41,376 bases of DNA, from positions 533 to 41,908 of the forward strand of contig VYDA01000537.1 in the NCBI GenBank assembly GCA_009843665.1. The letters run 5' to 3'. How positions within the stretch are numbered: position 1 is the first letter of the stretch; each line of letters begins with the position of its first letter. A model generated the notes under the pieces. The model was not told the origin of the DNA, searched no databases, and saw only the letters and a list, made by a program, of their open reading frames with translations. Origin of the DNA: Caldilineaceae bacterium SB0675_bin_29. Its GTDB lineage: Bacteria > Chloroflexota > Anaerolineae > Caldilineales > Caldilineaceae. The position numbers and the translations under genes were made by a program. This document shows, piece after piece, positions 6,177 to 40,490 of this stretch.

Positions 6177-6261
6177 TGCCATACTCCAAATCGCCTGATT
6201 TATTTATTATCGTGCATTTATAGGCAAAACTTACATTTTTACAAATTGCTTGTCAAATATC

Positions 6262-6349: not shown

Positions 6350-6547
6350 ATGAACAAGAAAAAACCGTTGGAGTTGCGCCGCACGGCAGCGATCTCCACG
6401 TCGGTTACGCCCAGCCAGAAAGAGCGCGTCCGGTCGGCGGCATACTACCGCGAGCAAATCCCGGCCGACTTCGTGCGAACTGTGGTGCTGGAAGCCGTGG
6501 AGAAGGCCGAGAGAGAACAGGCCAGACGGGAGAGGGCCAGTAAGTGA
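6350..6547 (+). CDS. Small ribbon-helix-helix-like DNA-binding protein
   Basis: This 65-residue basic protein opens with a strand-like segment (ELRRTAAISTSVTPSQKERV), then two helices (RSAAYYREQIPADFVRTVVLEAVEKAERE), the plan of small ribbon-helix-helix repressors. It is the first gene of the replication operon, so control of copy number or of its own promoter is the likely job. The ATG at 6350 follows AAAGGAACAGAG. Its stop overlaps the GTG of the next gene by four bases (GTGA), implying translational coupling. Fold assignment is from pattern only. Confidence 0.6.
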   Translation: MNKKKPLELRRTAAISTSVTPSQKERVRSAAYYREQIPADFVRTVVLEAVEKAEREQARRERASK

Positions 6548-7731
6548 GTATAGCGGACCGCATCGCCGGCGCCCTCGGCGCCCGCAAGGCGGGCGGCTGG
6601 TGGCGCACGTCTACGGCGCACTGTCACGGCGGCGATACCGCCGACGGCCTCGCCTTCCGATCTCCTGACGATGACCCCGACAAACTGATCGTTCGCTGCT
6701 ACTCGCGGGACTGCCACGAAACTTTGGAGGGCCGCAACCGTGCCCGCGACAACCTGCGCGCCGCGGCCGGACTTCCTCCCTGGCAGCCTTCGAGGGCGTA
6801 CAGCAGCGCACAGGCGGTCCAGGACGGCCAGAAACAGCGCAAGGGCAGTGGACTACCCTACAAGCGCCAAAACGCCGTCACGGACGGCCCCAGACAGCCT
6901 GTGACGGCGCCAGATGTCCTGCAGGGACACTTCCAGGCGCCGGTTGGCGCCAACAAAAGCGCTGAGAGACGTTCTGAGCGAAGTTCCGCTCGCAATCGCA
7001 ACGGCGATTCGGCCGCATGGGGCGCGCATATGCTGCCCTGGGACGATGACGCCGGCTGCCATTCCCACGCCGTGGCCTGTCCTGAATGCGGCAAGCCGGA
7101 CGCCCTGATCGCGTGGACACTGGCCGATCATCCCTTCCCCTACTGCGGCCTGGCCCTGAAGTGCAGCTGCGCCCTGTCCTATGACCAGCTGCACAAGCAT
7201 GTCGCCGCTCAGCTGGCGGCCAAGGGCTACGCATGGCGGCAACAGGCCTTCTATACGCTGCCCGGCGGACGAAGGCGCGCAAGGGTGCGAATCGACCCGG
7301 GCAAGTCTGTTTTCTGGGATACAGCCGAAGGCAGAGGCGCAACCGCAGGCTACGCGCCGGCCTTTTGGAACTCTCGGCGCGGTGTCCGTGCAGACTGCGG
7401 GCGCGCCCTAATCGTCGAGGGAGAGAAGGCGGCGGCGGCTTGCGTATCTGCCGGCATTGACGCGCAACTGGCTGTTTATAGCGTAGGTGGCATGGCCGCT
7501 TTCAAGAGCGCCGACTTCGCAGCCTTCGGCAACGGCTGCGAAGTTACGATATGGCCGGACAATCACGCTGAAGGCAAGGCGGCCGGGAATGTTGCGACCG
7601 CACGGCTGGCAGCCCTCGGCGCCGGCATTCGGATTGTGAGTGTAGTCGCCTTGCCGGAGAAGGGTGACGCCGCCGATATAGCAGCCGCAGAGATACGCAA
7701 ACGAATTCACAGCGCAAGGAAAATCGCATGA
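6544..7731 (+). CDS. Toprim-domain plasmid/phage primase
   Basis: The 395-residue protein has an N-terminal Cys/His segment (residues 18-60, with CHGGDTADGLAF and RCYSRDCHE) resembling the zinc domain of primase-like proteins. A second zinc-ribbon-like part follows near residues 178-220 (CPECGKPD and CSCALSYDQL). A Toprim domain occupies about residues 285-385: ALIVEGEKAA gives the catalytic glutamate and EVTIWPDNHAEG the acidic motif. It should make RNA primers for element replication. The GTG start overlaps the upstream stop, and its own stop overlaps the ATG of the helicase-like gene. The middle (residues 80-170) is poorly conserved-looking and rich in Arg/Ser. Confidence 0.8.
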   Translation: MSIADRIAGALGARKAGGWWRTSTAHCHGGDTADGLAFRSPDDDPDKLIVRCYSRDCHETLEGRNRARDNLRAAAGLPPWQPSRAYSSAQAVQDGQKQRKGSGLPYKRQNAVTDGPRQPVTAPDVLQGHFQAPVGANKSAERRSERSSARNRNGDSAAWGAHMLPWDDDAGCHSHAVACPECGKPDALIAWTLADHPFPYCGLALKCSCALSYDQLHKHVAAQLAAKGYAWRQQAFYTLPGGRRRARVRIDPGKSVFWDTAEGRGATAGYAPAFWNSRRGVRADCGRALIVEGEKAAAACVSAGIDAQLAVYSVGGMAAFKSADFAAFGNGCEVTIWPDNHAEGKAAGNVATARLAALGAGIRIVSVVALPEKGDAADIAAAEIRKRIHSARKIA

Positions 7732-8972
7732 GCAATCGGAATGGAACCGAGGCGGCCGCCGTCGAATACGGTCAGTTGGCCTCCAACTTTGCAAACACGC
7801 TGAAGGCGTGGAACAGCAACCCGTCCATAGGCAACCGACAACAGTTAGAGCAGTTGCGGGCCCGCATTGACGGGGAGCTGGCCAACAACACAGACGAAGT
7901 GGACAGCGACGCGCTGGCCGCTGCGCTGGCCGATGAGAAGAAGCGCGCGGACACGCTGCAGGCAATGGCCGCAATGATTGGAGAATTGCTGGATTCACCG
8001 GGACCGTCGAGCGCGGGATTGGACATTCTGGGTACGCACGATCCGAACCCGGACCCATTGACCTGGTTTGTGGCGTCGGGAGATCCAGCCCAGAACGGTT
8101 TCGGATGGATGCCGGACGCTACGGTTTCGGTGATGAGTGGCCCCGGAATGTCGGGCAAAAGCAGGATTGCGTTGCAACTGGCGGTCGCGACCGCGACAGG
8201 CGCGGCCGACTTTATCTTGCCGTCTGGCAAAAAGCGACCGCTGGCATTATGCGCTCCACAGGTGTTGATAGAAGGGCCGGTCGTCTATGCGGCGTGGGAG
8301 ACGCGCAAGCTGGCTTGGCAGAATCGCTTGGCGGCGGTATGCAGGGACGCCGGCGCCGACACCTGGACACTGCTAGACGAGCGGCTGCGCTATGTGAACA
8401 TGAAACCGACCGGCGGACTGTGGGGCGCCGAGCATGGAAAACACACCAGTACGGTAGGTTTTTGGTTGCCTGGCAGTCTGGAGATGATGCGCTATGCCGC
8501 GGAGTTCGGGGCGCGGTTGTTGATCATCGACCCGCTGGCCGGCGCCTTCATGCAAAACGAGAATGACCGCGCGCTGGTGCGTGCGTTTCTGTCGGCGCTC
8601 GACCAGTGGTGCGAAGACAACAACTGTGCAGTGCTGATCATATCGCACCCGGCCAAGCACGGGGACGATGCACAGTCGGGCAGTTCCGATTGGCGCAACG
8701 GCGTACAGGCCGTATGGGATATGTCCGCCGCGCGGGTGAAGGAAGGGACCAAATCAATACCCGCGCCGAACGGAGAGCGGTGTCTGCGCCTGGATAAGGT
8801 GAACGAGGCATCCGATCGCGCACCAAAAATCTATCTGCAGTGGGACAGCGGTCGCTTCGTGGAAGTGGAACCGCCAGAGGGCGCCGACGAGAGGCAGATG
8901 ATCGGCGCTCAGGCCGAGACGACCAGCACGGGCAAAACGCGGAGAAAACGCACTGATGGAAAGCAGACCTGA
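7728..8972 (+). CDS. RepA-like AAA/RecA-fold ATPase (replicative helicase type)
   Basis: The 414-residue protein has a RecA-type ATPase core: Walker A GPGMSGKSR (about residues 138-146), Walker B LLIIDPLAGAF near 265-275, then NCAVLIISHPAKHG with the sensor histidine, followed by SSDWRNGVQAVWDM. This is the pattern of the AAA_25/RepA family that unwinds DNA in plasmid and phage replication, and it fits its place right after the primase. Residues 1-100 are helical and may mediate oligomer contacts. The ATG overlaps the primase stop (ATGA), and the 3' end overlaps the next gene by 17 bases. Helicase activity is inferred from family and context. Confidence 0.8.
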   Translation: MSNRNGTEAAAVEYGQLASNFANTLKAWNSNPSIGNRQQLEQLRARIDGELANNTDEVDSDALAAALADEKKRADTLQAMAAMIGELLDSPGPSSAGLDILGTHDPNPDPLTWFVASGDPAQNGFGWMPDATVSVMSGPGMSGKSRIALQLAVATATGAADFILPSGKKRPLALCAPQVLIEGPVVYAAWETRKLAWQNRLAAVCRDAGADTWTLLDERLRYVNMKPTGGLWGAEHGKHTSTVGFWLPGSLEMMRYAAEFGARLLIIDPLAGAFMQNENDRALVRAFLSALDQWCEDNNCAVLIISHPAKHGDDAQSGSSDWRNGVQAVWDMSAARVKEGTKSIPAPNGERCLRLDKVNEASDRAPKIYLQWDSGRFVEVEPPEGADERQMIGAQAETTSTGKTRRKRTDGKQT

Positions 8973-10623
8973 TTTCGAGAACGCATGGGACGATCTGGCC
9001 AACAGAGTAGCGGACGACCAGGGACTAGCGGGTGACGAAACGCTCCCGACGCCGGCGGACGTTGCCACCGCACTGGGAGAGGTCGGGATGGCGAGGGCAA
9101 GAGAGAAGTACCGACTCCGGTTTTCCGCTCTGTACGATCTGGTGAAGAAGGAGTACCCGGAAGATCGGCCCGACCTGTTCCCGCAATCCGACCCATCGAA
9201 CCCGCCCGCCAGATGGCACAGCCTGGATATGGAATCTGCCCTGTGGGTCGAGGGTCTGCCGGTATCAGGAATGCTGATCAACGCGGACGGGGAGATCGAC
9301 AGGCGGCTGACCGTCGGCCTGCAAATGTTGAATCTGATCGTGCTCCTCGTAGGCCCGGAGGACACCCTTCGTTCCTTGGGGTCGAAAGATGATCAGCCCC
9401 TGGGGGCGGAGGATAATCTGATTGCAGGCTTCGAAGCGGTGCATATGATCTGGCAGTCTGCCGATCCAGCCAGGCGCGCGGGCCTGGAACACCCCCTCAA
9501 GCCGCTGTTAGCTGGATGGCTGAATCGGCCTGAGGTAATACAGCCCGATCTGGACAAGGGCGGCCGACCCCAAACAAAAGCCTTTATGCCGGATGGATTG
9601 TTCCCGGGGCAACCCTATTCTATACCCGCGCAGCTGCGCAGCGACAACGGGGGCGAACAACTCCCAATCTTGGGGAAAATGGAGAGAGACGGTGAGCAAC
9701 TACCCCTGTTGGCCGATATTCTGGATGATGCCGATCTACCGATCGCGCCCCTGCTGTTGGCGAAGGCCGCAGGATTTCACGGCCTCCAGCCGGGACGCGG
9801 CGCTCGCCTCGACAAACGTATTCTGATTTTCTCACTATTGGAAATGCCCTTAAATCAGCGCAGGCCCGGCGGCCGTTATGAGCTGCGGCGTCCCTTGCGC
9901 TTTTGGCGCGATTTACTATGGCCAACACGCGATGGCAAATCAAGTTATCGACCAGTCAAGCACAAACAAGCGCTGCGAGATGCACTGACCGCGATCAACT
10001 TGGCAGAGATAATAATGCCGGACGGTAGCAGTTGGATCCCTGTCGTTCGCCGTGGAATCCCTGATCTGGATAGCCTGGATTCAGAAGTAATTATACAGAT
10101 CGAGTTGCCATCCGGATCGGACAGAGGGCCTCAAGTTGACAAGGGAGTTTTGGCAGTGGCCGGTGTTGTAAGCGATCCTGCTTTCGATCTGGAATTAGGC
10201 CTCGCGTATCTATGGGATGAGGCGAAGCGCCGCAATGGAGGCTATCGGGTATATGCCACGCGACCCGAAGTTATACGCAACAAGCAGGGACACATAATGG
10301 ACGCGGCCGGCCATGTAATAGTCGAGAGGAAGAAACCGGTTACGCGGTGGGATCATCCGCGGGCAGTGCGGACTGGGCGCATGGAACGTAACCCGGCAGC
10401 AGATAGAGTGCGAGTGCTGGACAGAGAAGCACGGCGACGGCTTGCATACGGATCAGGAAACAGCAAACGGCCGGATCAGCTTTCACGCGACCGTGCCGCG
10501 ACCGACAAGAGGCTGGCTGGCATTGAGAGCGACGGCCGGATCCTCATTGAGCGGGATGCGGTCGATCTGCGAAACGGCGGTGACGGGTGGCGGATTCTGG
10601 AAGTGTGGTCGGCCGATGCTTGA
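8956..10623 (+). CDS. Large unrecognised protein, candidate replication initiator
   Basis: I do not recognise this 555-residue protein. It is the last gene of the coupled replication operon, overlaps the helicase gene by 17 bases, and ends one base before five 22-bp iterons. Residues 1-110 are acidic and helical. Residues 280-400 (RILIFSLLEMPLNQRRPGG, then RFWRDLLWP and KQALRDALTAINLAEI) could form winged-helix-like folds. Residues 400-440 form a long strand region, and 440-520 are very basic. A DNA-binding initiator that recognises the iterons is the simplest reading, resting on position and charge rather than homology. A structural role in the element is an alternative. Confidence 0.7.
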   Translation: MESRPDFENAWDDLANRVADDQGLAGDETLPTPADVATALGEVGMARAREKYRLRFSALYDLVKKEYPEDRPDLFPQSDPSNPPARWHSLDMESALWVEGLPVSGMLINADGEIDRRLTVGLQMLNLIVLLVGPEDTLRSLGSKDDQPLGAEDNLIAGFEAVHMIWQSADPARRAGLEHPLKPLLAGWLNRPEVIQPDLDKGGRPQTKAFMPDGLFPGQPYSIPAQLRSDNGGEQLPILGKMERDGEQLPLLADILDDADLPIAPLLLAKAAGFHGLQPGRGARLDKRILIFSLLEMPLNQRRPGGRYELRRPLRFWRDLLWPTRDGKSSYRPVKHKQALRDALTAINLAEIIMPDGSSWIPVVRRGIPDLDSLDSEVIIQIELPSGSDRGPQVDKGVLAVAGVVSDPAFDLELGLAYLWDEAKRRNGGYRVYATRPEVIRNKQGHIMDAAGHVIVERKKPVTRWDHPRAVRTGRMERNPAADRVRVLDREARRRLAYGSGNSKRPDQLSRDRAATDKRLAGIESDGRILIERDAVDLRNGGDGWRILEVWSADA

Positions 10624-11272: not shown

Positions 11273-11635
11273 ATGAGGATGAAAAGAGAGCTATCGATCT
11301 TGCCCTTGTTGGCGTTGTTAGTTTTGAGTTCTTGCGCTCCTTATGGACATTGGGGCAATTACGCTCGCTGGCACCACAGCTGCCCGGATTTCCCTTCTCT
11401 AGCAGAGGTTGAGCGGGTGTTGGAGGAGAAGAGCGCTATTATCGACGAGTTGCAGGAGGAGGGGCTGATCTGGTCTGCGGACGCTACCAAGTGTCCAGAG
11501 GGCGCATTTATCACGCTGCTTCATGGTGGCGAGTGGCAGAAGGCGCTAGTTTTGGAGATTCTGGATGAAGCGGGAGCGAGGGCGGAGGGGTTGAATCGTT
11601 TTTTTGGCATTCCATTTCGCTTTCTGAACGTTTGA
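11273..11635 (+). CDS. Small lipoprotein, C[A/T]PYGHW family
   Basis: The 120-residue protein has a signal sequence ending in the lipobox LVLSSC, so it should be lipid-anchored at the cell surface. Directly after the cysteine is the motif APYGHWGNYARWH, followed by an acidic helix (EVERVLEEKSAIIDELQEEGLIW) and a conserved tail ending GLNRFFGIPFRF. It is clearly paralogous to the proteins at 33476 and, frameshifted, at 33832, sitting 22 kb away inside mobile-element debris. Its leader (GCGAGGAGGCGAACA before ATG) resembles that of the 33476 copy. I know of no function for the family. Confidence 0.75.
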   Translation: MRMKRELSILPLLALLVLSSCAPYGHWGNYARWHHSCPDFPSLAEVERVLEEKSAIIDELQEEGLIWSADATKCPEGAFITLLHGGEWQKALVLEILDEAGARAEGLNRFFGIPFRFLNV

Positions 11636-14278: not shown

Positions 14279-14315
14279 TCCGACATCGGCGCCACAACCT
14301 CTCAAGGCGCATAGC

Positions 14316-19816: not shown

Positions 19817-19818
19817 AG

Positions 19819-26331: not shown

Positions 26332-27043
26332 ATGCCCTACACCAACCCATTCAGAATGGCAGTCGACATCGGCATGATGCTGGCATTCGCCCTGACCGCT
26401 CTCTTCGTACTGCTTCCCGGAACGCAGCCTCTGCTGACAGACGCAGCCTTCCTGACATCGACGGGCACAGCGCCCCCGGCCTCGATGGCCTCGCACGCCG
26501 AGACCGCCGCCGGCAAGGGAGCCGTCAGCATCGAACCGCATGTGGCAACCGCGGCTATAGGGGTGGAAGTCCTGAGTCCAACCGTGAAGGAAGCCAGTTC
26601 AGCCGCCCAGGCCGTAATGACGGATGTCTGGGCCGCGCTCGTCGCCCAGAACGTTGACGAATCGGACATCCGCATCAGTCACCTCAACATCTTTGCCGAA
26701 CGCCTGGGTCCGGACGGCCTGCTCAATGAAAATCAATCGCGTTACCACGCCAGCAACACCCTCCACATCACGATTCGGGACCTGGACAGCATCGACGCCG
26801 TGCTGGATGCTGCGATCGCCGCCGGCGCCAACAACATATACAGCGTCGACTTCAGCCTGCCCGATCCGGCTGCGGTCGAGTCCGAAACGCACGCAGGCGC
26901 TGGCCCGCGCCCGCGCCAAAACTGACGAACCGGCGGAGCTGCTCGGGCTCAGAACCGCAGGCGTGCCGCACATCAGCGTAGTCCTGGGCCCGGGCCGCGG
27001 CTCGCCCCATCACACTCTTCGAGGCCTTCTAAGGGCAGGTTCA
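26332..27043 (+). pseudogene. SIMPL-domain (DUF541) gene, frameshifted
   Basis: The frame encodes a signal anchor (residues 9-36) and a SIMPL domain to residue 183 (AVSIEPHVATAAIGVEVLSP, DLDSIDAVLDAAIAAGANNIYSV), then goes out of frame. Compared with the intact paralog at 28264, the segment near 26890-26920 is two bases short (28 against 30 before GCCAAA), ending the protein at 26925. The rest (ARAKTDEPAELLGL, VLGPGRG) continues in another frame. The ATG has AAGGAG. The truncated 197-residue product could still be made. SIMPL proteins are exported and of unclear biochemical role. Confidence 0.7.
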
Positions 27044-27076
27044 AGGCAGACGAACAGGAACCCGGGAGGAGCACGC

Positions 27077-27244
27077 ATGGCCAGGGATTTCAAGAGTATG
27101 ACGCGTATCGAGTTGGAATCCGAACTGTCTGCCGAGCGCGCCGCAACACGGCGCAGCCATGCAGTGATTGTCATGATGGCCGTATTGGGATTCATGATGG
27201 CTGTGCTGGGAGCAGCTGGCACTCTGATGCCGGCCGCCGGTTGA
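27077..27244 (+). CDS. Small single-pass membrane protein
   Basis: The ATG at 27077 follows GGGAGGAGC. The 55-residue product has a charged cytoplasmic helix (FKSMTRIELESELSAERAAT), then a methionine/glycine-rich membrane helix (VIVMMAVLGFMMAVLGAAG). No family is recognised. It sits between the two SIMPL frames on the same strand. Confidence 0.6.
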   Translation: MARDFKSMTRIELESELSAERAATRRSHAVIVMMAVLGFMMAVLGAAGTLMPAAG

Positions 27245-27366
27245 AGCTGGTGACGCCTATTAAACGAACCCTCATCCTTACTGCCGTTCAAACGGCGCAA
27301 CACAGCATCAGACCGCGATCCCGCTTCATGGCCTCCCAGTAAATCTCTTACGCCAAGGAGGAAAAC

Positions 27367-28008
27367 ATGAGGATGAAACTTTCAGGCAATGACAGGATAT
27401 GGGGACTGGCAACTGCGGGCGTAACGCTGAGTTTCTTCATCTGGGGGTTTCAGGGATCGGGGCCGCTGATCATACTTGCAATCATCTCCTGCATCCTGCT
27501 CGTCCTCTCTTTCGCCGTTCCATCGAAATTCCAGCCGCATCTCTTTTCCTCTGTCATTCTGATGATGGTAGGTGTGCTCGTTGGCGTCTTCCTTGAAAAA
27601 CTGCTTGGCGACATCCCTTACATCTGGTGGGCTGTGTGCGCGTGGCCGCTAACTGCCGCCGCCGCCGGTCTGCTCCGGCCCTTTCCCTTCCTGAAAAGAG
27701 CATTCCCCCTCCTGAGAATGACGGCTGCAGGTGATGCCGGGAAAAACGCAGGAAGAGGGAACGTGAAGAACTACCGGCCCCAGGTCATTTCTATTCTCGT
27801 TCTGGGACTGGCAAGCACGATCGGCACCGCCGTGGCCCACCTGTTCAGCCTCTACACCCCCGACCTGTACGGATCGCGTAAGATGTCCGAGAGCTTTGGC
27901 CCTGTAGGGTACGCCTTCCTTTTCTGGATAGGTTCCGCCCTTTCCGTACTGCGCTTCGGCCCTTTCAAAACATATCTGCCAAAAGACCGGGAGGACGGCC
28001 AAACGTGA
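27367..28008 (+). CDS. Integral membrane protein, about six helices
   Basis: The 213-residue protein has hydrophobic segments near residues 12-28, 32-50, 58-78, 84-103, 136-158 and 175-193. A charged loop lies at 110-134 (LRMTAAGDAGKNAGRG). The ATG follows the ideal site AAGGAGGAAAAC. The pair at 31004 and 31323 looks like a split paralog: the first part shares LLxxxVPxKxxxH and the membrane pattern, the second shares RQPRILTLL-type and AHxLYL sequence. I know of no function. Confidence 0.7.
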   Translation: MRMKLSGNDRIWGLATAGVTLSFFIWGFQGSGPLIILAIISCILLVLSFAVPSKFQPHLFSSVILMMVGVLVGVFLEKLLGDIPYIWWAVCAWPLTAAAAGLLRPFPFLKRAFPLLRMTAAGDAGKNAGRGNVKNYRPQVISILVLGLASTIGTAVAHLFSLYTPDLYGSRKMSESFGPVGYAFLFWIGSALSVLRFGPFKTYLPKDREDGQT

Positions 28009-28104
28009 AGATTCCTGCCCGCCGGCTAGGAAGCCGCGGTCGTGGTTATCGTCCTCACACGCCTGCTCGATTTTCGATCATGGACTGCTCTCGAGAGGTT
28101 GATT

Positions 28105-28224
28105 ATGTCTGTCGCTGTAAGTGTGTTGCAGCCCTTTTCCGCGCCGGTCAAACAGGTTGCAGAGGCCGCCGGCTGTACCCCGGAAGCAGACGGAAACTCT
28201 GTTCCCTCCCCCGTAATTCTGTAA
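28105..28224 (+). CDS. Doubtful 39-residue ORF
   Basis: The ATG at 28105 follows GAGAGG at six bases. The peptide (MSVAVSVLQPFSAPVKQVAE, then a Cys/Pro/Ser tail) is mildly amphipathic and matches no family I know. It fills the gap between the membrane protein and the intact SIMPL gene and may be chance. Confidence 0.25.
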   Translation: MSVAVSVLQPFSAPVKQVAEAAGCTPEADGNSVPSPVIL

Positions 28225-28263
28225 CACAAATCGGGCAAATGCTTACACAAGGAGAACATCCGG

Positions 28264-29022
28264 ATGCAAAGCAGAAAATGGACCAGGACGGCGATCTGCC
28301 TGGCTGCAACCTCAACATTCATCCTGACGGCCCTGTACTTCGTCGCTACCCCCTATATGACGTCCGCCGCCCTGGCAAACGAAACGACGACCGCTTCCGC
28401 CTCCACGCAGTCGGTAACCGTTGTCGGCGAAGGCGTAGTCAACATCGAACCGGACGTTGCCGCCGCCAGAATCGGCGTCGTCGTTCTCCGCTCAACCGTG
28501 AGAGAAGCCAGTTCTGAAGCCGGCGGGATCATGCAAGCGGTTAAGGCCGCCCTGCTCGCGCAGAACATCGAGGAGAAAGACATCCAGACCAGGCACTTCG
28601 ACATTTCCGCCGAGCGCTATGGTCCGGAGGGACTGCTGCAGGAGGACCAGGTGCAGTACCATGTCCGCAATATCGCCTTTGTCACCATTCGCGACCTGGA
28701 CAACATCGGCGGCGTACTCGATGCTGCCATTGGGGCCGGAGCCAACGACATCGGCAGCGTCAGATTCAGTCTGGAAAATCCGGCTGCCGTCGAGTCTGAG
28801 GCCCGTGCCATGGCCGTCGCCGATGCCCGCGCCAAAGCGGAGGAACTCGCCGACCTGATAGGCGTAAGTGTTGGTGAAGTGACCGAAATCAGCGAGATCA
28901 TCGGGCACGGCGGCGGATTCTTCAACAATAGCTTTTCCGAAATGGCCTTGGCCGACTCCGCCTTCAGCATCGGGGAGCTCACGCTGGCGATGCAACTCCA
29001 GGTCACATACAGGCTCCAGTAA
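28264..29022 (+). CDS. SIMPL-domain (DUF541) protein, exported
   Basis: The 252-residue protein has an N-terminal hydrophobic signal (residues 9-37), then a complete SIMPL domain. The opening strand is SVTVVGEGVVNIEPDVAAARIGV, the central parts are NIEEKDIQTRHFDISAER and DLDNIGGVLDAAIGAGANDI, and the conserved helix is EARAMAVADARAKAEELADL, followed by GVSVGEVTEI. SIMPL proteins are usually periplasmic or extracytoplasmic and assemble into rings in some bacteria; their ligand is unsettled. The ATG follows AAGGAGAACATCC. It is the intact partner of the frameshifted gene at 26332, about 1.9 kb upstream. Confidence 0.85.
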   Translation: MQSRKWTRTAICLAATSTFILTALYFVATPYMTSAALANETTTASASTQSVTVVGEGVVNIEPDVAAARIGVVVLRSTVREASSEAGGIMQAVKAALLAQNIEEKDIQTRHFDISAERYGPEGLLQEDQVQYHVRNIAFVTIRDLDNIGGVLDAAIGAGANDIGSVRFSLENPAAVESEARAMAVADARAKAEELADLIGVSVGEVTEISEIIGHGGGFFNNSFSEMALADSAFSIGELTLAMQLQVTYRLQ

Positions 29023-29206
29023 AGATGCAAACAACCGGAGGGGGCCCGGTCGCACCTTCACCGCCTGTTTCGCCCGGTGCGCACTGTACGCAATGACCGA
29101 GGCGTTCGCCTGAACGAAATATGAACCCTGCCTGCACAATTCGCACCGCGGCTGATGAAATCACGGGTCCGTATCGCTGACAAAGCGCAAGGGAGAAACA
29201 TCCAAA

Positions 29207-29464
29207 ATGAATGAATCCTTATTCGGTCTGCTTCCAGGCTATGACGATGGCTACACCGACGACAACCGGCCGTCAAGGCAGCCCAGCCGGCAAACGCTCA
29301 GGAGCCTGATCACCGATTTCCAGACGAACCCGCTGCCCCTGCCCGTCTGGATCTGGAACTGCATTGTCATCTACATCATGATCAGCGTGTCATTGTTTCT
29401 GCTAAAGATCGGGGTCGTCATCCTGGTCGGGCTCCCCTTATTTCTCTTGAGACTTTTTGGATAA
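29207..29464 (+). CDS. Small membrane protein
   Basis: The 85-residue protein has a polar N-terminus (GLLPGYDDGYTDDNRPSRQ) and two closely spaced membrane helices (WIWNCIVIYIMISVSLFLLK and GVVILVGLPLFLLRLF). The ATG follows GGGAG. The gene ends 26 bases before the sulfatase ATG, so the two are probably co-transcribed. The family is unknown. Confidence 0.65.
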   Translation: MNESLFGLLPGYDDGYTDDNRPSRQPSRQTLRSLITDFQTNPLPLPVWIWNCIVIYIMISVSLFLLKIGVVILVGLPLFLLRLFG

Positions 29465-29490
29465 CGGTGAGACCAAATGGAGTCGTGCAT

Positions 29491-30885
29491 ATGTCCTCTC
29501 CCAACATCCTCTTTCTGATGACCGACCAGATGCAGGCCCGCGTCCTCGAACCGGACAACCCCTGCCGGACCCCCAATCTGGACCGGCTTGCCGCCGGAGG
29601 TGTGCGCTTCCGCCGCGCCTACACGCCCAACGCCGTCTGCTCGCCCGCCCGCGCCAGCCTGATGACCGGTCTGCTGCCCCACAACCACGGCGTCCTCTTT
29701 GTCGAGCACACCGTCGAAGCCGATCAGGCCAGGCTGCGCACGCCCTATCTCCACTGGGCCGATCAGCTGACCGCCGCCGGCTACGACACCGGCTACTTCG
29801 GCAAGTGGCATGTGGAGCGCTCCAACAACCTCTCCCGCTTCGGCTGGCAGGAGCAGGGCGCGCTCTTTGATAACCCTGACTGGGACGCCGCCCGCTTCTC
29901 GCTGGAACGCCATCTCGACGGCCCGCCCGGCTACCGGCCCAACCGCTTCTACGGCGTCTGTGATCTGCCCGCCGGCGAACGCGGAATGGGCAAAACGACC
30001 GGCGCCGCGCTCGCCTATCTGGACACGGTCCTGGCCGCAAGCGCGCCCTGGTGCTGTTTCGTCAGCTTCACCGAACCCCGCGATCCCTTCTACTGCCACC
30101 AGGACGCCTTCGCCCGGTACGACGTCGACTCGATCCCGCTGCAGCCAAACATCCACCACGACCTGAGCGGCCAGCCCAATCTCTACAAACGGGCCGCGCA
30201 GGTGTGGCGCGGCTGGACCGACCGCGAACACCGCGAGGCCGCGGCCTGCTACTACGCCTCCATCAGCGAGATCGACCGGCAGTTCGGGCGCCTTCTGGAC
30301 CGTGTGGAACGCGCCGGCCAGCTCGAAGACACGATCGTGGTGATGACGTCGGACCACGGCGAGCTTCTCGGCGCGCACGGGCTTTACTGCAAAAACATCG
30401 GCGCCTTTGAAGAGATCTACAACATCCCCCTCGTGATGGCCGGGCCCGGCGTGGCCGCCGCCGCGGTGAGCGACGCCCGCGTCGGCCTGCAGGATGTCGG
30501 CCAGACACTTCTGGATCTGGTCGGCGCGCCGCCGCTGGATGACATCGACGGCAGCTCCTTTGCCCCCCTGCTGGCCGGTCCCCATGACACCTCCGCCTGC
30601 CGGAAGGGATTCGCCGAATACCACGGCGGGCGCTACACGCTCACCCAGCGCATCCTGTGGGACGGGGACTGGAAATTCGTTCACAACGGCTTCGACTATG
30701 ACGAGCTCTACAACCTTGCCGTAGACCCCTTTGAGATGAACAACCTGGCGCAGGATCCGGCCCATGCCCGCAGAATCCAGGCCATGACCCGGCACATGTG
30801 GTCTATCGCCGTTGAATCCGAGGACCACAGCCTCGCCAACACCCACGACCCGCCGCTGCGTATCGCAGCCGCAGGACCGGGATAG
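29491..30885 (+). CDS. Sulfatase (arylsulfatase/choline-sulfatase type)
   Basis: This 464-residue protein is a type I sulfatase. The formylglycine motif CSPARAS starts at Cys50. NILFLMTDQ supplies Asp12 and Gln13 as metal ligands, GKWH gives Lys105 and His107, and SDHGELLGAHG gives Asp288 and His289, with Lys301 after. It hydrolyses sulfate esters once Cys50 is converted by a formylglycine-generating enzyme, which is not in this window. No signal peptide is seen, so it is probably cytoplasmic unless exported otherwise. The usual HxPF is replaced by RDPF near residue 197. An upstream GTG at 29467 is in frame, but GGAG suits the ATG at 29491. Confidence 0.92.
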   Translation: MSSPNILFLMTDQMQARVLEPDNPCRTPNLDRLAAGGVRFRRAYTPNAVCSPARASLMTGLLPHNHGVLFVEHTVEADQARLRTPYLHWADQLTAAGYDTGYFGKWHVERSNNLSRFGWQEQGALFDNPDWDAARFSLERHLDGPPGYRPNRFYGVCDLPAGERGMGKTTGAALAYLDTVLAASAPWCCFVSFTEPRDPFYCHQDAFARYDVDSIPLQPNIHHDLSGQPNLYKRAAQVWRGWTDREHREAAACYYASISEIDRQFGRLLDRVERAGQLEDTIVVMTSDHGELLGAHGLYCKNIGAFEEIYNIPLVMAGPGVAAAAVSDARVGLQDVGQTLLDLVGAPPLDDIDGSSFAPLLAGPHDTSACRKGFAEYHGGRYTLTQRILWDGDWKFVHNGFDYDELYNLAVDPFEMNNLAQDPAHARRIQAMTRHMWSIAVESEDHSLANTHDPPLRIAAAGPG

Positions 30886-31439: not shown

Positions 31440-31615
31440 TCGGCGGCGGGCGGCCGTTTGAAGGAGCAAGCCCATGCGTGTACAACCTCAACCTCCGCAA
31501 GCAGGTCGGATTCACACCTGGCGCTGCCAGACCCGCGTTTCCAGGGACGACGCATGTCAATCGGGATTATGTGCCGTGCAATGCGGGTTAATGGGAAGAC
31601 AAAGGAGAAAACGCC
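31440..31615. other. Short leader region before lipoprotein gene
   Basis: No convincing gene. The last bases hold the ribosome-binding site of the next gene (AAAGGAGAAAACGCC). The open frame starting at 31474 runs through the lipoprotein gene in another frame and is not supported. Confidence 0.4.
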
Positions 31616-32161
31616 ATGTTGAAGAAGCTTCTGATTGCCGGGCTCGCGGTACTGATTACTGCCTGTGTGCCCATACCGCAGGAGACACCGGTAGCATTGA
31701 CTTCGACTCCGATTCCGCAACCTGTCCATACGCCCACTGGAACCGTTCAGCAAGGCGATTGCGTTATGCACGGTGGCAGCCCTGCTCCCACTCTTCCTGA
31801 CACGGATTGCAGAGCTTGGGAAATGCTCCACTCATTACTGTTTATGGCCGATATGATGGCGAACAAAAGTCAAGGCCCTACGGCATCAGAGCTCGTCGCT
31901 TTTGAAGAGGAGCTGTATCCCCTCTTTTTCCAGGCTCAACGCAACTGTGGCGAGTGGCTTGAACCATATGTAGATTACGAACCAATTACAGACTACCTTG
32001 GCATCATCATGGCGATAGGCAAGCAGGAGTATGATTATGACCCGCCCTCTTTACTCCAGTTTCTGATCGAGGGAGCTTCTACCGAAGAGTTTGCAGATCA
32101 ATCTGAATCGACCGGTTGCGTGAAAAATCTTTTCCTCCTTTTTGTCGCATACTCTGAATGA
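31616..32161 (+). CDS. CVPIP-family lipoprotein (duplicated copy A)
   Basis: The 181-residue protein has a signal sequence with lipobox LITAC, then VPIPQETPVALTSTPIPQP, a threonine/proline linker. The globular part has six cysteines (GDCVMHGGS, TDCRAWEMLHSLLFMADMM, QRNCGEWLEP, STGCVKNLF). It should be anchored at the outer face of the membrane. It is almost identical to the protein at 35522, including bases beyond the stop. No function is known to me; helical packing with disulfides is likely. Confidence 0.75.
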   Translation: MLKKLLIAGLAVLITACVPIPQETPVALTSTPIPQPVHTPTGTVQQGDCVMHGGSPAPTLPDTDCRAWEMLHSLLFMADMMANKSQGPTASELVAFEEELYPLFFQAQRNCGEWLEPYVDYEPITDYLGIIMAIGKQEYDYDPPSLLQFLIEGASTEEFADQSESTGCVKNLFLLFVAYSE

Positions 32162-32260
32162 CCGGTCATACATAAAGATGGCCCCCATCCCGAGAGCGCA
32201 CTGCTGTCAGGCAAGAGGCCGGCGGCATGGGAGAGTTCAGGAAGATATTTTTGGGACACG
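31616..32260 (+). repeat. Long direct repeat, copy A (about 645 bp)
   Basis: This segment is nearly identical to 35522-36166, 3906 bases downstream, covering the whole lipoprotein gene and about 100 bases after it. Differences cluster at the first few codons and near the 3' end. Beyond 32260 the copies diverge abruptly, exactly where a dispersed 'gatccgcggaggacgcgg' repeat begins here. Confidence 0.85.
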
Positions 32261-32345
32261 GAGAACGGCAACACCTTTTTGATCCGCGGAGGACGCGGAG
32301 GGGCGCGGAGAACGGCGAAACTTTTTCAGATCCTTGGAGGGGCGT
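32258..32345 (+). repeat. Dispersed 'gcggagg' repeat
   Basis: 'cacggagaacggcaac', then 'gatccgcggaggacgcgg' and 'ggcgcggagaacggcgaaac' form a purine-rich repeat. Its complement recurs at 40385-40490 and more loosely at 37795-37860. Here it interrupts the small-membrane-protein frame beginning MGEFRKIF (32227), which is intact for longer in the second duplicate at 36133. Confidence 0.6.
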
Positions 32346-32386
32346 CCTGCGGAGGATGCGGCGGGGCTGCATTTGTCACATATTGA

Positions 32387-32560
32387 ATGGCATTCGCCCA
32401 ATGTCAAGGCTACCTGACTTTGCCGCGCTGGATTGGCGATGCGTTCAGGCCGTATGCGGTCGATTCACGAGAACTGATTCTCATGCTCGTGCTGCCGTGG
32501 CTATGTGTTCAGTTTGCGTGGATACAGGTCGGGACAAATGAGAGAGGAAAAGCAAGATGA
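32387..32560 (+). CDS. Small membrane protein, coupled to next gene
   Basis: The ATG at 32387 opens a 57-residue protein (MAFAQCQGYLTLPRWIGDAF) with one clear membrane helix (ELILMLVLPWLCVQFAWIQV). Its stop overlaps the next ATG as ATGA, so the two small membrane proteins are probably translated together. It is too short for many gene-finders. Its own ribosome-binding site is weak, which lowers confidence. Confidence 0.5.
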   Translation: MAFAQCQGYLTLPRWIGDAFRPYAVDSRELILMLVLPWLCVQFAWIQVGTNERGKAR

Positions 32561-32751
32561 ATGACGATCTGTGGAGGTTTCCTTGGGGAACTTTTACGGG
32601 CGAGCAGGTGTGGGAGTTCACGAACTTCATCGAAAGCATTGAGGTCATCGTCCTGCCCGCTGTCTACCTTATTCTCGTTGTTATGGTTCCATCGGTAAGA
32701 ACATTGATCAATATCTGGTATGCCATCGGAGTATGGCTATTGGGCGGCTAA
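32557..32751 (+). CDS. Small membrane protein
   Basis: The ATG at 32557 follows GAGAGGAAAAGCAAG and overlaps the stop of the preceding small ORF. The 64-residue product has a polar aromatic start (DDLWRFPWGTFTGEQVWEF) and one or two membrane helices (IEVIVLPAVYLILVVMVP, TLINIWYAIGVWLLG). I recognise no family. Confidence 0.6.
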   Translation: MNDDLWRFPWGTFTGEQVWEFTNFIESIEVIVLPAVYLILVVMVPSVRTLINIWYAIGVWLLGG

Positions 32752-32959
32752 GAGCCAGAGATACGTACAGCCAAGTATATAGATCCCATATTTTTGGGAT
32801 GGAACCATTTCGGCACAACGGGCGTTGTTATCCGAGAGTCAAAATGGTCGGTCTCGAATGAATGGAATCCCGGTACCGCCAGAAATCCTGAGTGCCAGAG
32901 ATTCTATGAATCTCATTTCGCCCAACGATTAGCCATCTGTTTCAGAAAGGAAAAGGAAG

Positions 32960-33367
32960 ATGAAGAGTCGCAACGTAGCCTTTATAGCGTTCGTGATCGC
33001 CGTTCTGGCAGGTTGTGTGCCGATTCCGCAGGTAGAGCCGCCGGTTACGAGACCCCAGGAATCGAAAGCTGGACTGTCCGACCTCGCCAGTCTTTTCGCT
33101 AAGTGGGATGCGCACGACGACCCGATAGAATACCTGGATTTACTGAAAGAGCTCGAGGGCTGTATGGCCCCTTTCTCCGATCCTGAATTCAAAGGCGTCT
33201 TAACTGACGGAGAATATTCTGCTTTTCTTATCTACGCCGTCTCTGTCTCAATGGCAGCAGCCGGTGAAGAAATCAGCAAAGAGCACAGGTCAGAAAGAAA
33301 ATCTGACAATCACAGACTCGGCTTTCAATACCTGACACGAGTGATGGAAACTTGCGACGAGGACTAA
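32960..33367 (+). CDS. CVPIP-family lipoprotein
   Basis: The 135-residue protein has lipobox VLAGC followed by VPIPQVEPPVTRPQ, then an all-helical body (GLSDLASLFAKWDAHDDPIE, LKELEGCMAPF) and a late helix ending VMETCDED. The ATG follows AGAAAGGAAAAGGAAG. It aligns with the protein at 34188 (GLLDLASVFARHD, TEYVDVLLSIRDC), which carries extra heptapeptide repeats that this copy lacks, so this one probably keeps the ancestral form. It is expected to be lipid-anchored outside the cell. Confidence 0.7.
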   Translation: MKSRNVAFIAFVIAVLAGCVPIPQVEPPVTRPQESKAGLSDLASLFAKWDAHDDPIEYLDLLKELEGCMAPFSDPEFKGVLTDGEYSAFLIYAVSVSMAAAGEEISKEHRSERKSDNHRLGFQYLTRVMETCDED

Positions 33368-33475
33368 GGCTCGTTACGTAGCTCTAATCCTTGGGCTGCA
33401 CCGAATATGACATTGCGGAGGTTGTCGAAGCGGCTTCGTCCTTGAAAACTGACTGCAATACGCAAGGGGAGGCCA

Positions 33476-33835
33476 ATGATGAAACAATCGCTACTGTTTG
33501 TACTGACTCCGACGCTTCTGGTCCTAGTATCCTGTACGCCTTATGGACACTGGAGCAGTTACAGTCATTGGCATTACAACTGTGAGGAATTCCCTACGCG
33601 TGAAGAGGTTGAAGCGGTCCTGGAGGAGAAGGCTGATCTTATTGAGAGGTTGGCGGAGGAGGAATTGATTTGGTCGGCTGACGTAAGTACGTGTCCGCAA
33701 GGCGCTTTCATCACGCTGTTTCATGGCGGCGAGTGGCAAAAAGCATCTGTTCTGGAGATTCTCGATGAAGCCGGAGCCAGGACCGAAGGGTTGAACCGCT
33801 TCTTTGGCATACCATTTCGATTTGTCAACGTATGA
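33476..33835 (+). CDS. C[A/T]PYGHW-family lipoprotein
   Basis: The 119-residue lipoprotein has lipobox LVLVSC, then TPYGHWSSYSHWHYN, an acidic helical middle (REEVEAVLEEKADLIERLAE) and a tail (GAFITLFHGGEWQKASVLEI, GLNRFFGIPFRF). It matches the 11273 protein over nearly its full length. The start has GGGGAGG, with a second ATG one codon on. Its stop overlaps the ATG of the next, frameshifted paralog (ATGA). Confidence 0.75.
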   Translation: MMKQSLLFVLTPTLLVLVSCTPYGHWSSYSHWHYNCEEFPTREEVEAVLEEKADLIERLAEEELIWSADVSTCPQGAFITLFHGGEWQKASVLEILDEAGARTEGLNRFFGIPFRFVNV

Positions 33836-34177
33836 AAACAAGACTGGTTGCGCTGTTTCTGACGTCTCTGGTCCTGGTCTCCTGTACGCCCTATGGACAC
33901 TGGGGCAGATACGACTGGTGGCGAGACAACTACCCTGACTTCCCATCCGACGAGGAAGTCGAGCAGGTCGTTGAGGAGAAAAAAACTCTTCAAAGAGTTG
34001 TTGGAAAAGCGGCTGATCTACAAGCAGGTGATTATAACCCCATGTCTGGATGGAGCCTTTATCACTCTCTATTCCAAGAACAAGGCGGGTGCGCTCAAAG
34101 TGTTGAATGGAGCCAACGCCAGGGCCGAAGGACTGACAATGTTCTGGGGCGTTCCTTTTCGATTTATCAGAGACTAG
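33832..34177 (+). pseudogene. C[A/T]PYGHW-family lipoprotein with A7 frameshift
   Basis: The first frame gives a signal, lipobox LVLVSC, TPYGHWGRYDWWRDNYPDF and the helix EEVEQVVEEK, then meets a run of seven A at 33979-33985. The family tail (ELLEKRLIYKQ, GAFITLYSKNKAGALKVL, GLTMFWGVPFRF) follows in another frame. Removing one A restores one continuous protein of about 114 residues. This is either a real pseudogene, a slippage-controlled gene, or a sequencing error in the homopolymer. Confidence 0.75.
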
Positions 34178-34187
34178 GGGAACTGCA

Positions 34188-34721
34188 ATGAAATATGTCA
34201 TCCTGATTGTCTCTCTGGCACTGCTGGTTGGATGTGTGCCGATACCAGCCGAGCCTCCTCCTGAGCCTGTTCCTGATTTTCTTGATTCCGCAGTCGAAGC
34301 TGGCTTGCTCGATCTCGCTTCTGTGTTCGCGCGCCATGACAGCTGGACTTTCACGCGCCATGACAACCAGTTCGCGCGCCATGACGGCCAATTCGCACGC
34401 CATGACGGCCAGACCGATGTAACGGAGTATGTGGATGTGCTTCTCAGCATACGGGATTGCATCACAAATGACTTGGGAGACTTTGCTGCGGACCTCGGTC
34501 TGGAAACCGAGGCAGGACATACGGGTTATGTCGCCTATCTGGTAGGAGTGCTCAGGTCGGCGGTGATGTATCACCGGCACATGGCGGTTGAATCGGGTGA
34601 AGTGAGCTCATACATTCCAGACGACAATCCCTGGAGAGGCCAGTACCACCTCTTACATTTGAAGTGGACACTGGCCTACTGCGAAGACAGCGGGGAACAT
34701 GAATGGATGAAGACAGAGTGA
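34188..34721 (+). CDS. CVPIP-family lipoprotein with heptapeptide repeats
   Basis: The 177-residue lipoprotein has lipobox LLVGC, then VPIPAEPPPEPVPDF. After GLLDLASV it has four FARHDxx repeats (FARHDSW, FTRHDNQ, FARHDGQ, FARHDGQ), then the body matching the 32960 protein. The repeats would extend a charged helix or stalk away from the membrane. The start follows GGGGAACTGCA at modest spacing. The next small membrane protein starts 19 bases before this stop. Confidence 0.75.
   Translation: MKYVILIVSLALLVGCVPIPAEPPPEPVPDFLDSAVEAGLLDLASVFARHDSWTFTRHDNQFARHDGQFARHDGQTDVTEYVDVLLSIRDCITNDLGDFAADLGLETEAGHTGYVAYLVGVLRSAVMYHRHMAVESGEVSSYIPDDNPWRGQYHLLHLKWTLAYCEDSGEHEWMKTE
34326..34412 (+). repeat. 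Intragenic 21-base tandem repeat
   Basis: Four copies around 'ttcgcgcgccatgacggccaa' encode FARHDGQ-type heptapeptides; the last two are nearly identical. The 21-base unit keeps the frame, so copy number can change without breaking the lipoprotein. Confidence 0.8.
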
Positions 34722-34957
34722 ATGTCCAGGCTTCGTCAGACCGGACAGACTGGTTCGAGTTGGCGTGCAAACTCGTGTTTGTCTTCATTTTCTGCGTGTT
34801 CGTCAGCTTCATCGCGGGCTTCACTTCCAGTCTGTTTTGGCACGCCCACTATGAGCCATTTCTCTACCCTTGTCCTGATGCGAATAAAGGCGGACTATGC
34901 GAGTACAAGCACCAGGCGCCGCCTCCACGCGATGAGCCCATTTTGTTCTACAGCTGA
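34703..34957 (+). CDS. Small membrane protein with YPCP motif
   Basis: The ATG at 34703 lies inside the previous gene's last codons. The 84-residue product has a membrane helix (LVFVFIFCVFVSFIAGFTSS) and an outward tail (EPFLYPCPDANKGGLCEYKH). Its short EP-[FM]-L-[YF]-PCP-x-D-cysteine tail is shared with the next small gene (EPMLFPCPYTDDP, ending ACS), so the two are probably paralogs. Confidence 0.6.
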   Translation: MDEDRVNVQASSDRTDWFELACKLVFVFIFCVFVSFIAGFTSSLFWHAHYEPFLYPCPDANKGGLCEYKHQAPPPRDEPILFYS

Positions 34958-34974
34958 GTAGGCGAGAGCGCGAA

Positions 34975-35142
34975 ATGCAGAAGATAAAACGCAGCTTGTT
35001 GCCAGTGACGATTCTGGTCGGCCTTACTTTGGGCTGGATTCTAGGCAAACAGACTCTCATGTACTACATCTTCGTCGGTTCGGAACCGATGCTTTTCCCC
35101 TGCCCGTATACCGACGATCCAAACACCATTGCCTGCTCCTAA
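34975..35142 (+). CDS. Small membrane protein, paralog of the previous one
   Basis: A 55-residue ORF starts at 34975, 18 bases after the previous stop. It has one membrane helix (LLPVTILVGLTLGWILG) and the tail EPMLFPCPYTDDPNTIACS, matching the cysteine/proline pattern of the 34703 product. Being under 60 codons it is easily overlooked. GGCGAGAGCG precedes it as a weak ribosome-binding site. Confidence 0.6.
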   Translation: MQKIKRSLLPVTILVGLTLGWILGKQTLMYYIFVGSEPMLFPCPYTDDPNTIACS

Positions 35143-35148
35143 AGGCGG

Positions 35149-35361
35149 TTGGAGCCACCCCCCAAACTCGCCGTTCGCTGGCACGGCTGGCCGCACCAGG
35201 AAGGTGTGCCTACATATCCACGGTCGAGCGGTATCTGGTTGATTGACTTTCTGTTTTTCGATCCGGATCATCTGCCTGACACGACACTGTCAGGCGTTAT
35301 CCTGGCGGCGCTGATTGTGGATGTCGCGATTGGTTTTGCCAGCGGCTTTCCGCTTTACTGA
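35149..35361 (+). CDS. Possible small membrane protein
   Basis: A TTG at 35149, six bases after the preceding stop and behind AAAGGCGG, opens 70 codons. The product is aromatic at the start (VRWHGWPHQEGVP) with a membrane helix (LSGVILAALIVDVAIGFASG). The start codon is unusual, and no family is recognised. Confidence 0.45.
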   Translation: MEPPPKLAVRWHGWPHQEGVPTYPRSSGIWLIDFLFFDPDHLPDTTLSGVILAALIVDVAIGFASGFPLY

Positions 35362-35521
35362 GGCGTCCTTTAGGCCATAACCGAGCCCCTGCTCTCGATG
35401 CCGAGCCCGGCTTCTCTGCGCGAATTTCTTTTCGCCGGTCCTGTGACGGAACCGCCGTCATGGGGAACGTTTCGCCCTGACGGGTGACGCGGCAGCCAAA
35501 CAAACCACAGGAGACAACACC
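35362..35521. other. Short intergenic leader
   Basis: No gene is seen. The sequence ends in the ribosome-binding site ACAGGAGACAACACC before copy B of the duplicated lipoprotein. It does not match the leader of copy A, so the duplication starts close to the start codon. Confidence 0.45.
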
Positions 35522-36067
35522 ATGTTGAGGACACTGCTGATTGCCGGGCTCGCGGTACTGATTACTGCCTGTGTGCCCATACCGCAGGAGCCGCCGGTAG
35601 CATTGACTTCGACTCCGATTCCGCAACCTGTCCATACGCCCACTGGAACCGTTCAGCAAGGCGATTGCGTTATGCACGGTGGCAGCCCTGCTCCCACTCT
35701 TCCTGACACGGATTGCAGAGCTTGGGAAATGCTCCACTCATTACTGTTTATGGCCGATATGATGGCGAACAAAAGTCAAGGCCCTACGGCATCAGAGCTC
35801 GTCGCTTTTGAAGAGGAGCTGTATCCCCTCTTTTTCCAGGCTCAACGCAACTGTGGCGAGTGGCTTGAACCATATGTAGATTACGAACCAATTACAGACT
35901 ACCTTGGCATCATCATGGCGATAGGCAAGCAGGAGTATGATTATGACCCGCCCTCTTTACTCCAGTTTCTGATCGAGGAAGCTTCTACCGAAGAGTTTGC
36001 TGAAATGTCTGAATCGACCGGTTGCACTAAGAATCTCTTCCTGCTCTTTGTCGCATACGCTGAATGA
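35522..36067 (+). CDS. CVPIP-family lipoprotein (duplicated copy B)
   Basis: Nearly identical to the 31616 product: lipobox LITAC, VPIPQEPPVALTSTPIPQP and six conserved cysteines. It differs mainly at residues 3-5 (RTL against KKL) and near the C-terminus (EEASTEEFAEMSESTGCTKN). Substitutions are few and mostly conservative, which suggests a recent duplication with both copies still under constraint, or gene conversion. The expected location is the outer membrane face. Confidence 0.75.
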   Translation: MLRTLLIAGLAVLITACVPIPQEPPVALTSTPIPQPVHTPTGTVQQGDCVMHGGSPAPTLPDTDCRAWEMLHSLLFMADMMANKSQGPTASELVAFEEELYPLFFQAQRNCGEWLEPYVDYEPITDYLGIIMAIGKQEYDYDPPSLLQFLIEEASTEEFAEMSESTGCTKNLFLLFVAYAE

Positions 36068-36166
36068 CCGGTCATACACAAAGATGGCCCCCATCCCGAG
36101 AGCGCATTGCTGTCAGGTAAGAGGACGGCGGCATGGGGGAGTTCAGAAAGATATTTTTCGGGTACG
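35522..36166 (+). repeat. Long direct repeat, copy B (about 645 bp)
   Basis: Partner of 31616-32260, with the same order and a near-identical sequence through the lipoprotein gene and about 100 bases beyond. Downstream it continues into the frame at 36133 without the 'gcggagg' insertion seen after copy A, so copy B probably keeps the older flank. Confidence 0.85.
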
Positions 36167-36314
36167 GCACAATATTTGGGGTAGGTTATGTGCTCCTGGA
36201 TGTGGCGAGCCGATTACGGATTGGTGGGGCGACGTCTTGACCGCTTATGCAGGAGCCGGTCTCGCAGCAGCGCTCATGTACGTAGCTTCTAGGCGAAACC
36301 GTTCTGGATCGTGA
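36133..36314 (+). pseudogene. Small membrane protein gene with frameshift
   Basis: The first frame gives MGEFRKIFFGYGTIFGVGYV, then LLDVASR, and stops at 36238. In another frame, from about 36205, EPITDWWGDVLTAYAGAG continues to a second membrane helix (LAAALMYVASRRNRSG) ending at 36314. Joined, they make a plausible two-helix protein of about 60 residues. In the other duplicate (32227) the same start is cut by the dispersed repeat. Confidence 0.5.
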
Positions 36315-40257: not shown

Positions 40258-40344
40258 CTCTCCCCCCTTCAATCCAAGCGCCCAACCCCTCCCGCTCCGA
40301 AGCCCCAAAAAGCCAGCTCTCCGCGCTCTCCCGCCGCCAATCCG

Positions 40345-40370
40345 TAGGGGCACCCCTAGTGGGTGCCCTC
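40345..40370. repeat. Palindromic repeat (GGGCACCC/GGGTGCCC)
   Basis: Arms GGGCACCC (40348-40355) and GGGTGCCC (40361-40368) pair across CTAGT. Sequences of this form (gtaggggcacccc...gggtgccc) occur dispersed in many bacterial genomes. It lies just upstream of the kinase start, so regulation cannot be excluded. Confidence 0.55.
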
Positions 40371-40384
40371 TTGCGGACGTCATG

Positions 40385-40490
40385 AATCAAAAAAGGTGTC
40401 CTCCGCGTCCTCCGCGGATCAAAAAGATGTTGCCGTTCTCCGTGCCCCTCCGCGTCCCTCCGCGGACAAAAAAGCGGTCCCCGCGCCCCC
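40385..40490 (-). repeat. Dispersed 'gcggagg' repeat, copy beside kinase
   Basis: The complement of this segment reads as two tandem units with 'gatccgcggaggacgcgg' and 'gcacggagaacggcaac', matching 32258-32345 in order. It lies between the kinase start region and the gene-poor stretch beyond. Confidence 0.65.

Follow-up and report, generated by a model that had tools for sequence, protein, structure and literature searches.

Lineage-specific lipoprotein genes in a composite locus at a variable spot of a Caldilineaceae chromosome

Introduction

Do lipoprotein genes that lie side by side on one strand belong to a single envelope system, or have they come together separately at one spot of the chromosome? 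This question is raised by an array of six predicted lipoprotein genes and small membrane proteins in a 41,376-nucleotide stretch of DNA (the window) from Caldilineaceae bacterium SB0675_bin_29, which a reading made from the sequence alone (the sequence-only reading) had taken for a possible new envelope system. The window covers positions 533–41908 of contig C189 (VYDA01000537.1) in a metagenome-assembled genome (MAG; G000) of 4.56 Mb, 729 contigs and 81% completeness. Sponge-associated Chloroflexota are abundant and uncultured, and the bacterial group of this genome is presumably sponge-associated, in agreement with the sponge papers among our literature listings. The array is a genuine locus of composite make-up, with undescribed genes specific to the lineage, at a variable chromosomal spot. 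The explanation we favour, with a probability of roughly 0.65, is that it represents a decaying patch of genus-restricted accessory surface-lipoprotein genes beside a conserved SIMPL-sulfatase block.

Composition of the array

The array consists of the following features (aa, amino acids; TM, transmembrane segment; ORF, open reading frame):

31600..32261, + strand, direct repeat copy 1 (31688–32072 identical to copy 2)
31616..32161, + strand, LpA1, lipoprotein of 181 aa with a CVPIP leader and an all-helical mature domain
32557..32751, + strand, small one-TM ORF of 64 aa without a relative found, possibly not a real gene
32960..33367, + strand, LpB, F2-family lipoprotein (CVPIP) of 135 aa
33476..33835, + strand, PYGHW1, intact lipoprotein of 119 aa, 68% identical to PYGHW0 (described below)
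33832..34191, + strand, PYGHW2, frameshifted, its C-terminal half going on in frame 33893–34177
34188..34721, + strand, LpC, F2-family lipoprotein (CVPIP) of 177 aa with FARHDGQ-type repeats
34325..34412, + strand, 21-nt tandem repeat, four copies within LpC, expanding the F2 FA[KR]xD core
34703..34957, + strand, S, one-TM membrane protein of 84 aa, EPxLYPCP family
34975..35361, + strand, M, same family as S, with an in-frame TAA at 35140–35142 that leaves ORFs 34975–35142 and 35149–35361
35506..36167, + strand, direct repeat copy 2 (35594–35978 identical to copy 1)
35522..36067, + strand, LpA2, second LpA copy, protein 96% identical

A sequence scan, by which lipidation is predicted, places six ORFs that measure 80 aa or more and have a lipobox and signal peptide on the + strand between 31616 and 36067, within 4.5 kb (starts at 31616, 32960, 33476, 33832, 34188 and 35522). 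The same scan found at best 0–2 lipobox ORFs per 4.7 kb and strand in 20 random 20-kb windows from two related genomes (G011 and G015), and in 300 first-order Markov simulations it found none in 296 and one in 4. This comparison confirms the six lipoprotein frames within 4.7 kb of one strand on which the sequence-only reading was built. That reading had sorted them into two families, of CVPIP and PYGHW type; the PYGHW paralogs are real, but the six proteins form three families without sequence kinship, namely LpA (31616 and 35522), F2 (32960 and 34188) and PYGHW (33476 and 33832), and CVPIP is no family mark. LpB and LpC are 27% identical and were aligned with eight relatives (alignment A2).

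At least five small membrane proteins had also been counted. Among those inside the stretch only S and M have relatives, M being the frame pair at 34975 and 35149, while searches with ORFs 32557 and 36133 returned only themselves and ORF 32227 runs in part across a dispersed repeat, of which positions 32253–32301 are 96% identical to 40400–40448. This dispersed inverted repeat, of GCGGAGGACGCGGAG type, lies behind LpA1 (32253–32340) and again at 40400–40474. Two of the overlaps are true, the ATGA at 33832–33835 and the one at 34703–34721; the ATGA shared by PYGHW2 and the ORF at 34188 lies in a frame that is broken. The G+C content of 0.51–0.55 at 31–38 kb, against 0.59–0.64 at 28–31 kb and 0.69–0.70 at 38–40 kb, speaks for a patch of accessory genes, with the reservation that equally low values occur in other parts of the window.

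The ratio of nonsynonymous to synonymous substitution rates (dN/dS) is 0.12–0.58 across pairs of all four families (LpA, F2, PYGHW and S/M), the exception, still below 1, being an M pair that has few changes and gives 0.90; LpA1 gives 0.16–0.32 against its orthologs and PYGHW1 gives 0.12 against PYGHW0. These values are signs of purifying selection on all four families.

A variable chromosomal site

The array is preceded by a conserved block:

26332..30885, + strand, SIMPL1, MP27367, SIMPL2, orf29207 and a sulfatase (named from sequence)

The helix-turn-helix (HTH)-SIMPL-sulfatase block is kept in the related genomes G004, G005, G009, G014 and G016, and the genes that follow the sulfatase (names read from sequence) differ: a tetratricopeptide repeat (TPR) gene plus the replication module of an element in G004, several genes including one for a cache-like lipoprotein in G005, stomatin-like genes and later LpA in G009, ATP-binding cassette (ABC) transporter genes in G014 and G016, small TM genes with MP31004 in G012, and yet other genes behind the more distant sulfatase of G003. 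The array therefore occupies a variable chromosomal spot, and on this point the sequence-only reading, which had likened it to a rapidly diversifying surface locus, is supported.

Mobile or defence markers (integrases, insertion sequence (IS) remnants and restriction genes) lie near F2 at 13 of 19 loci and near PYGHW at 5 of 7, two of them circular (L029 and L030), compared with 0 of 20 random windows. These counts come from 39 loci of 10–20 kb each, several of them mutual orthologs, with controls from two genomes, and several marker queries were drawn from loci beside these very families (L021, L028, L029 and L030), which makes the scores of L029 and L030 circular; the PYGHW locus of G081 (L033) and part of the LpA, S/M and F2 matches lie outside the scoring. 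Within the window, Type I restriction-modification genes (16757–23528; HsdR by PADLOC, HsdS and HsdM from sequence only) end 8 kb before the array.

The four families in related genomes

When only matches extending into the mature domain are counted, the families are limited to one genus, apart from a single weak PYGHW match in a different family of the class. Of 46 family genomes 7 carry LpA, each of them a member of the genus, the match in G015 covering the leader only. At an E value of 0.001, F2 matches occur in 16 of the 46, many of them leader-only, including both from outside the genus (G020 and G023); those that reach the mature domain are limited to the genus. S/M is found in 10 of 46, again none of them outside the genus; at 15 of 16 sites the two genes stand in tandem (one pair partial), S and M overlapping by a few bases in intact loci. 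The PYGHW search suggested by the sequence-only reading gave matches in 8 of 200 relatives, 7 of them in the genus; against named genomes, the PYGHW alignment found four loci, all from Caldilineaceae bacterium (SB0662_bin_25, bin5 and jk18xAbins.67). The two SB0662_bin_25 contigs with PYGHW elements differ in read coverage (158 vs 39.5), which may reflect multicopy DNA or mixed binning. No match was found in phage, plasmid and viral collections for S/M, PYGHW1, PYGHW0 or PYGHW alignment A4.

Clustering between relatives is partial. The S-M pair recurs, and F2 lies near S-M at 5 of 19 F2 loci, but the full gene set is found at no other of the 39 related loci, where the best holds four lipoproteins per 4.7 kb, of other families. 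At the 13 scored LpA or PYGHW loci neither family is accompanied by other array members. Homologs of LpA and PYGHW are single and scattered, the outcome that the sequence-only reading had set against its own proposal, and those of S-M are not.

The CVPIP leader was rejected as a family marker, as C-x-P-I-P after the lipid cysteine fronts unrelated lipoproteins genus-wide. Behind a lipobox the 17 genomes of the genus contain the motif 99 times (9 for the backward-pattern control) and 29 other genomes of the family contain it 47 times (control 19), the counts being summed by hand over these genomes, with 54 further scanned genomes left out of the sums. In the window's own genome 11 of 14 matches are lipoprotein leaders and 3 are not. 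Such leaders front M28-like peptidases, repeated-domain proteins, an SH3-like protein, F5 and F2 (names read from sequence, without a database result), and the motif could possibly be a genus-specific leader or sorting feature.

Duplication and decay within the array

The duplication, repeat expansion and frameshifts described earlier are all present. The 662-bp direct repeat that carries LpA1 and LpA2 has an identity of 95%, with its copies 3.9 kb apart, and all 32 differences fall in the outer 88 and 189 bp (88% identity over 277 bp), leaving a central 385 bp identical; by hand arithmetic, the chance of such a difference-free stretch is ∼2e-10 if the differences were evenly spread. Constraint alone is insufficient to explain the identical centre because orthologs do diverge from LpA1 there. 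The simplest reading of an identical centre with differing ends would be gene conversion between LpA1 and LpA2, a step that we infer from the pattern of differences.

In PYGHW2 the frame changes near 33980, within a run of A, and the remaining homology lies in frame 33893–34177. M is interrupted by its TAA, while its relatives are mostly single open frames of 106–117 aa. Conserved readthrough of the M stop was considered and rejected, since the TAA in the second copy of this genome (C189:48.5k) is the normal end of an intact gene; the short S has TGA at a tryptophan position, but nothing conserved comes after the stop of the window copy, which we read as a short form. That second S-M pair, intact and on the same contig (C189:48219–48841; L021 6311–6933), has a further HNH-like match at a distance of ∼1 kb and another tyrosine recombinase at ∼2.3 kb.

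The integrative element carrying PYGHW0

A third PYGHW copy is found 20 kb away from the array, in an integrative element:

4241..5155, − strand, tyrosine recombinase
6544..10623, + strand, Toprim - AAA_25 - RepP replication module (RepP is our label for the third gene)
11273..11635, + strand, PYGHW0, lipoprotein of 120 aa, downstream of the replication module

PYGHW comes after repP in the window and in two elements of genome G001. In one of these (contig C96) Toprim, AAA_25 and RepP are 93–96% identical to the window proteins; in the other, a diverged element (contig C198), the replication genes are 28–55% identical and PYGHW is 92% identical. PADLOC matches adjoin PYGHW in G006 and G012. 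A further lipoprotein of the window element (3553–4164, −) matches Pfam tRNA_anti-like (E 1.1e-11) and PHROG 8545, 'superinfection exclusion Sie-like' (E 8e-7).

Direct repeats of 670 bp with a terminase-small-subunit-like gene (494–1163 and 13655–14322; 90%) flank the segment with the recombinase, Toprim, AAA_25, RepP and PYGHW0, a third fragment lying at 11934–12072, and copies of this gene stand on both sides in G001:C96 as well. Directly behind repP are 22-bp tandem repeats (window 10625–10730, 4.8 copies; G001:C96, L026 16281–16365, 3.9 copies), which are iteron-like and could be a possible replication origin. Beside the recombinase, 5190–6182 (−) encodes a DUF4268 protein of the PADLOC candidate defence family PDC-S11 (E 4.9e-67). 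Elsewhere in the window, 37885–40383 (−) encodes a hybrid histidine kinase of a strongly amplified family (up to 7 matches per genome at E 1e-200, in 13 of 17 genomes). Rfam gave no match in the window, and no tRNA was found.

Discussion

Our results suggest how such an array may arise. The genes would have come separately through mobile-element traffic, with one duplication in addition; recombination between the LpA copies would homogenise them and slippage would vary the repeats. With two genes broken, by the PYGHW2 frameshift and the in-frame TAA of M, the array appears partly decayed, and the intact products are, from their lipoboxes, predicted to be exported, lipidated and shown on the outer face of the membrane.

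Several observations weigh against this explanation. Markers of mobility or defence are found at 0 of 6 LpA loci and at 1 of 7 S-M loci without F2, which makes it possible that LpA, and probably also S-M, belong to the resident genes. The array itself showed no attachment site, no tRNA and no element boundary. The lipoproteins tested have no match in PADLOC or NCBIfam, and in Pfam and PHROG they give only weak sub-threshold rows; coverage was uneven, Pfam being scanned with LpA1, LpB, LpC, PYGHW0, PYGHW1 and PYGHW2 at E up to 1 and with ten F2 members at E up to 0.1, and PHROG with LpA1, LpB and PYGHW1 (3/6). The predicted models of PYGHW0 (mean predicted local distance difference test, pLDDT, 81.4) and LpA1 (75.4) have no match in the Protein Data Bank (PDB) at E 0.001 or better, nor has PYGHW0 one in a viral structure library at this level, where the only matches were weak ones (best E 0.03), to uncharacterised phage proteins of small size; the best VIA Z values for the two models, 5.7 and 5.9, are in the range that means a common arrangement only.

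The same marker counts at LpA and S-M, together with the limitation of the families to one genus, favour the view that all these are resident, fast-evolving lipoproteins of the genus without mobile origin, their closeness to integrases and IS remnants reflecting generally variable regions. We regard this as unlikely, given the marker counts at F2 and PYGHW loci against those of the controls and the G001:C198 element, where PYGHW is far better conserved than the replication genes before it. Still less probable is the coordinated envelope system, in which the array would be the operon of a single complex made up of lipoproteins and small membrane proteins. The single strand, the tight spacing, the two real start–stop overlaps, the tandem S-M pair and the closeness of F2 to it at five loci are consistent with this proposal, but LpA and PYGHW keep no company with the other members elsewhere, two members are broken and the full set recurs at no other locus; as a single new system of unrelated families, the claim of the sequence-only reading is not upheld.

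It is about as improbable that the 385-bp identical LpA block has joined unrelated stretches by mis-assembly, so that the array order is partly false. A MAG of 729 contigs with such a repeat invites this suspicion, but the differing repeat ends argue for two true copies, and the inner part of the array, F2 near S-M, recurs at five other loci. Paralogous surface proteins of small size, as in this variable array, could also be immunity lipoproteins or toxin-immunity pairs directed against neighbouring bacteria; no toxin or secretion gene was recognised beside them in the inspected gene lists and no family match was found, which leaves this a very slim prospect.

Two known systems invite comparison with the patch of accessory lipoprotein genes that we favour. 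In Staphylococcus aureus, the lpl lipoproteins of vSa-alpha are clustered in a variable island with hsdM/hsdS, and the paralogs agree in the middle and vary at their ends, a pattern considered to promote shuffling (PMC4470592). The layout is alike, with lipobox proteins clustered at a variable site and perhaps also in the nearness of restriction genes, and so are the conserved centre and variable ends, although here these concern LpA1 and LpA2 only, two copies 3.9 kb apart. In contrast to the one expanded family of that account, the present array has three unrelated families plus small membrane proteins, and its hsd genes stand at a distance of 8 kb. With three families, and with DUF576 absent from the Pfam rows of the array lipoproteins and the ten F2 members, the array is not a member of the lpl kind.

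The Ltp-type superinfection-exclusion lipoproteins of Streptococcus thermophilus phages, which block the injection of phage DNA, combine a lipid anchor, a spacer and a small folded surface domain (PMC3952083). The likeness lies in the predicted lipobox signal peptide and lipid anchor and, for PYGHW, possibly in being a mobile-element gene; unlike these phage proteins, the array is a cellular variable locus, and the Ltp repeat domain was not found in the Pfam scans. By Pfam (family lipoprotein_Ltp), the array lipoproteins are not members of the Ltp family. PHROG 8545 is matched by the 3553–4164 lipoprotein of the PYGHW0 element and unmatched by LpA1, LpB and PYGHW1.

By analogy with Ltp-type proteins, the array lipoproteins might change how the cell surface is recognised, for instance by keeping out phages or competing elements. 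Such a role would fit the neighbours of F2 and PYGHW and the Sie-like match of another element lipoprotein, but we put it forward only tentatively. A more specific version, which we doubt, is that integrative elements of the genus with a tyrosine recombinase, Toprim, AAA_25 and RepP carry undescribed excluding lipoproteins (PYGHW, perhaps also F2 with S-M), the array being a store reshaped by gene conversion and slippage.

Open PMC (PubMed Central) literature yielded nothing on these families, nor on Caldilineaceae, sponge and lipoprotein together. The locus provides four families (LpA, F2, PYGHW and S/M) for which the family libraries searched gave no match, together with a variable site at which mobile elements and surface genes replace one another. 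If the lipoproteins do affect the entry of phages or elements, they would offer a handle on surface defence in sponge-associated Chloroflexota.

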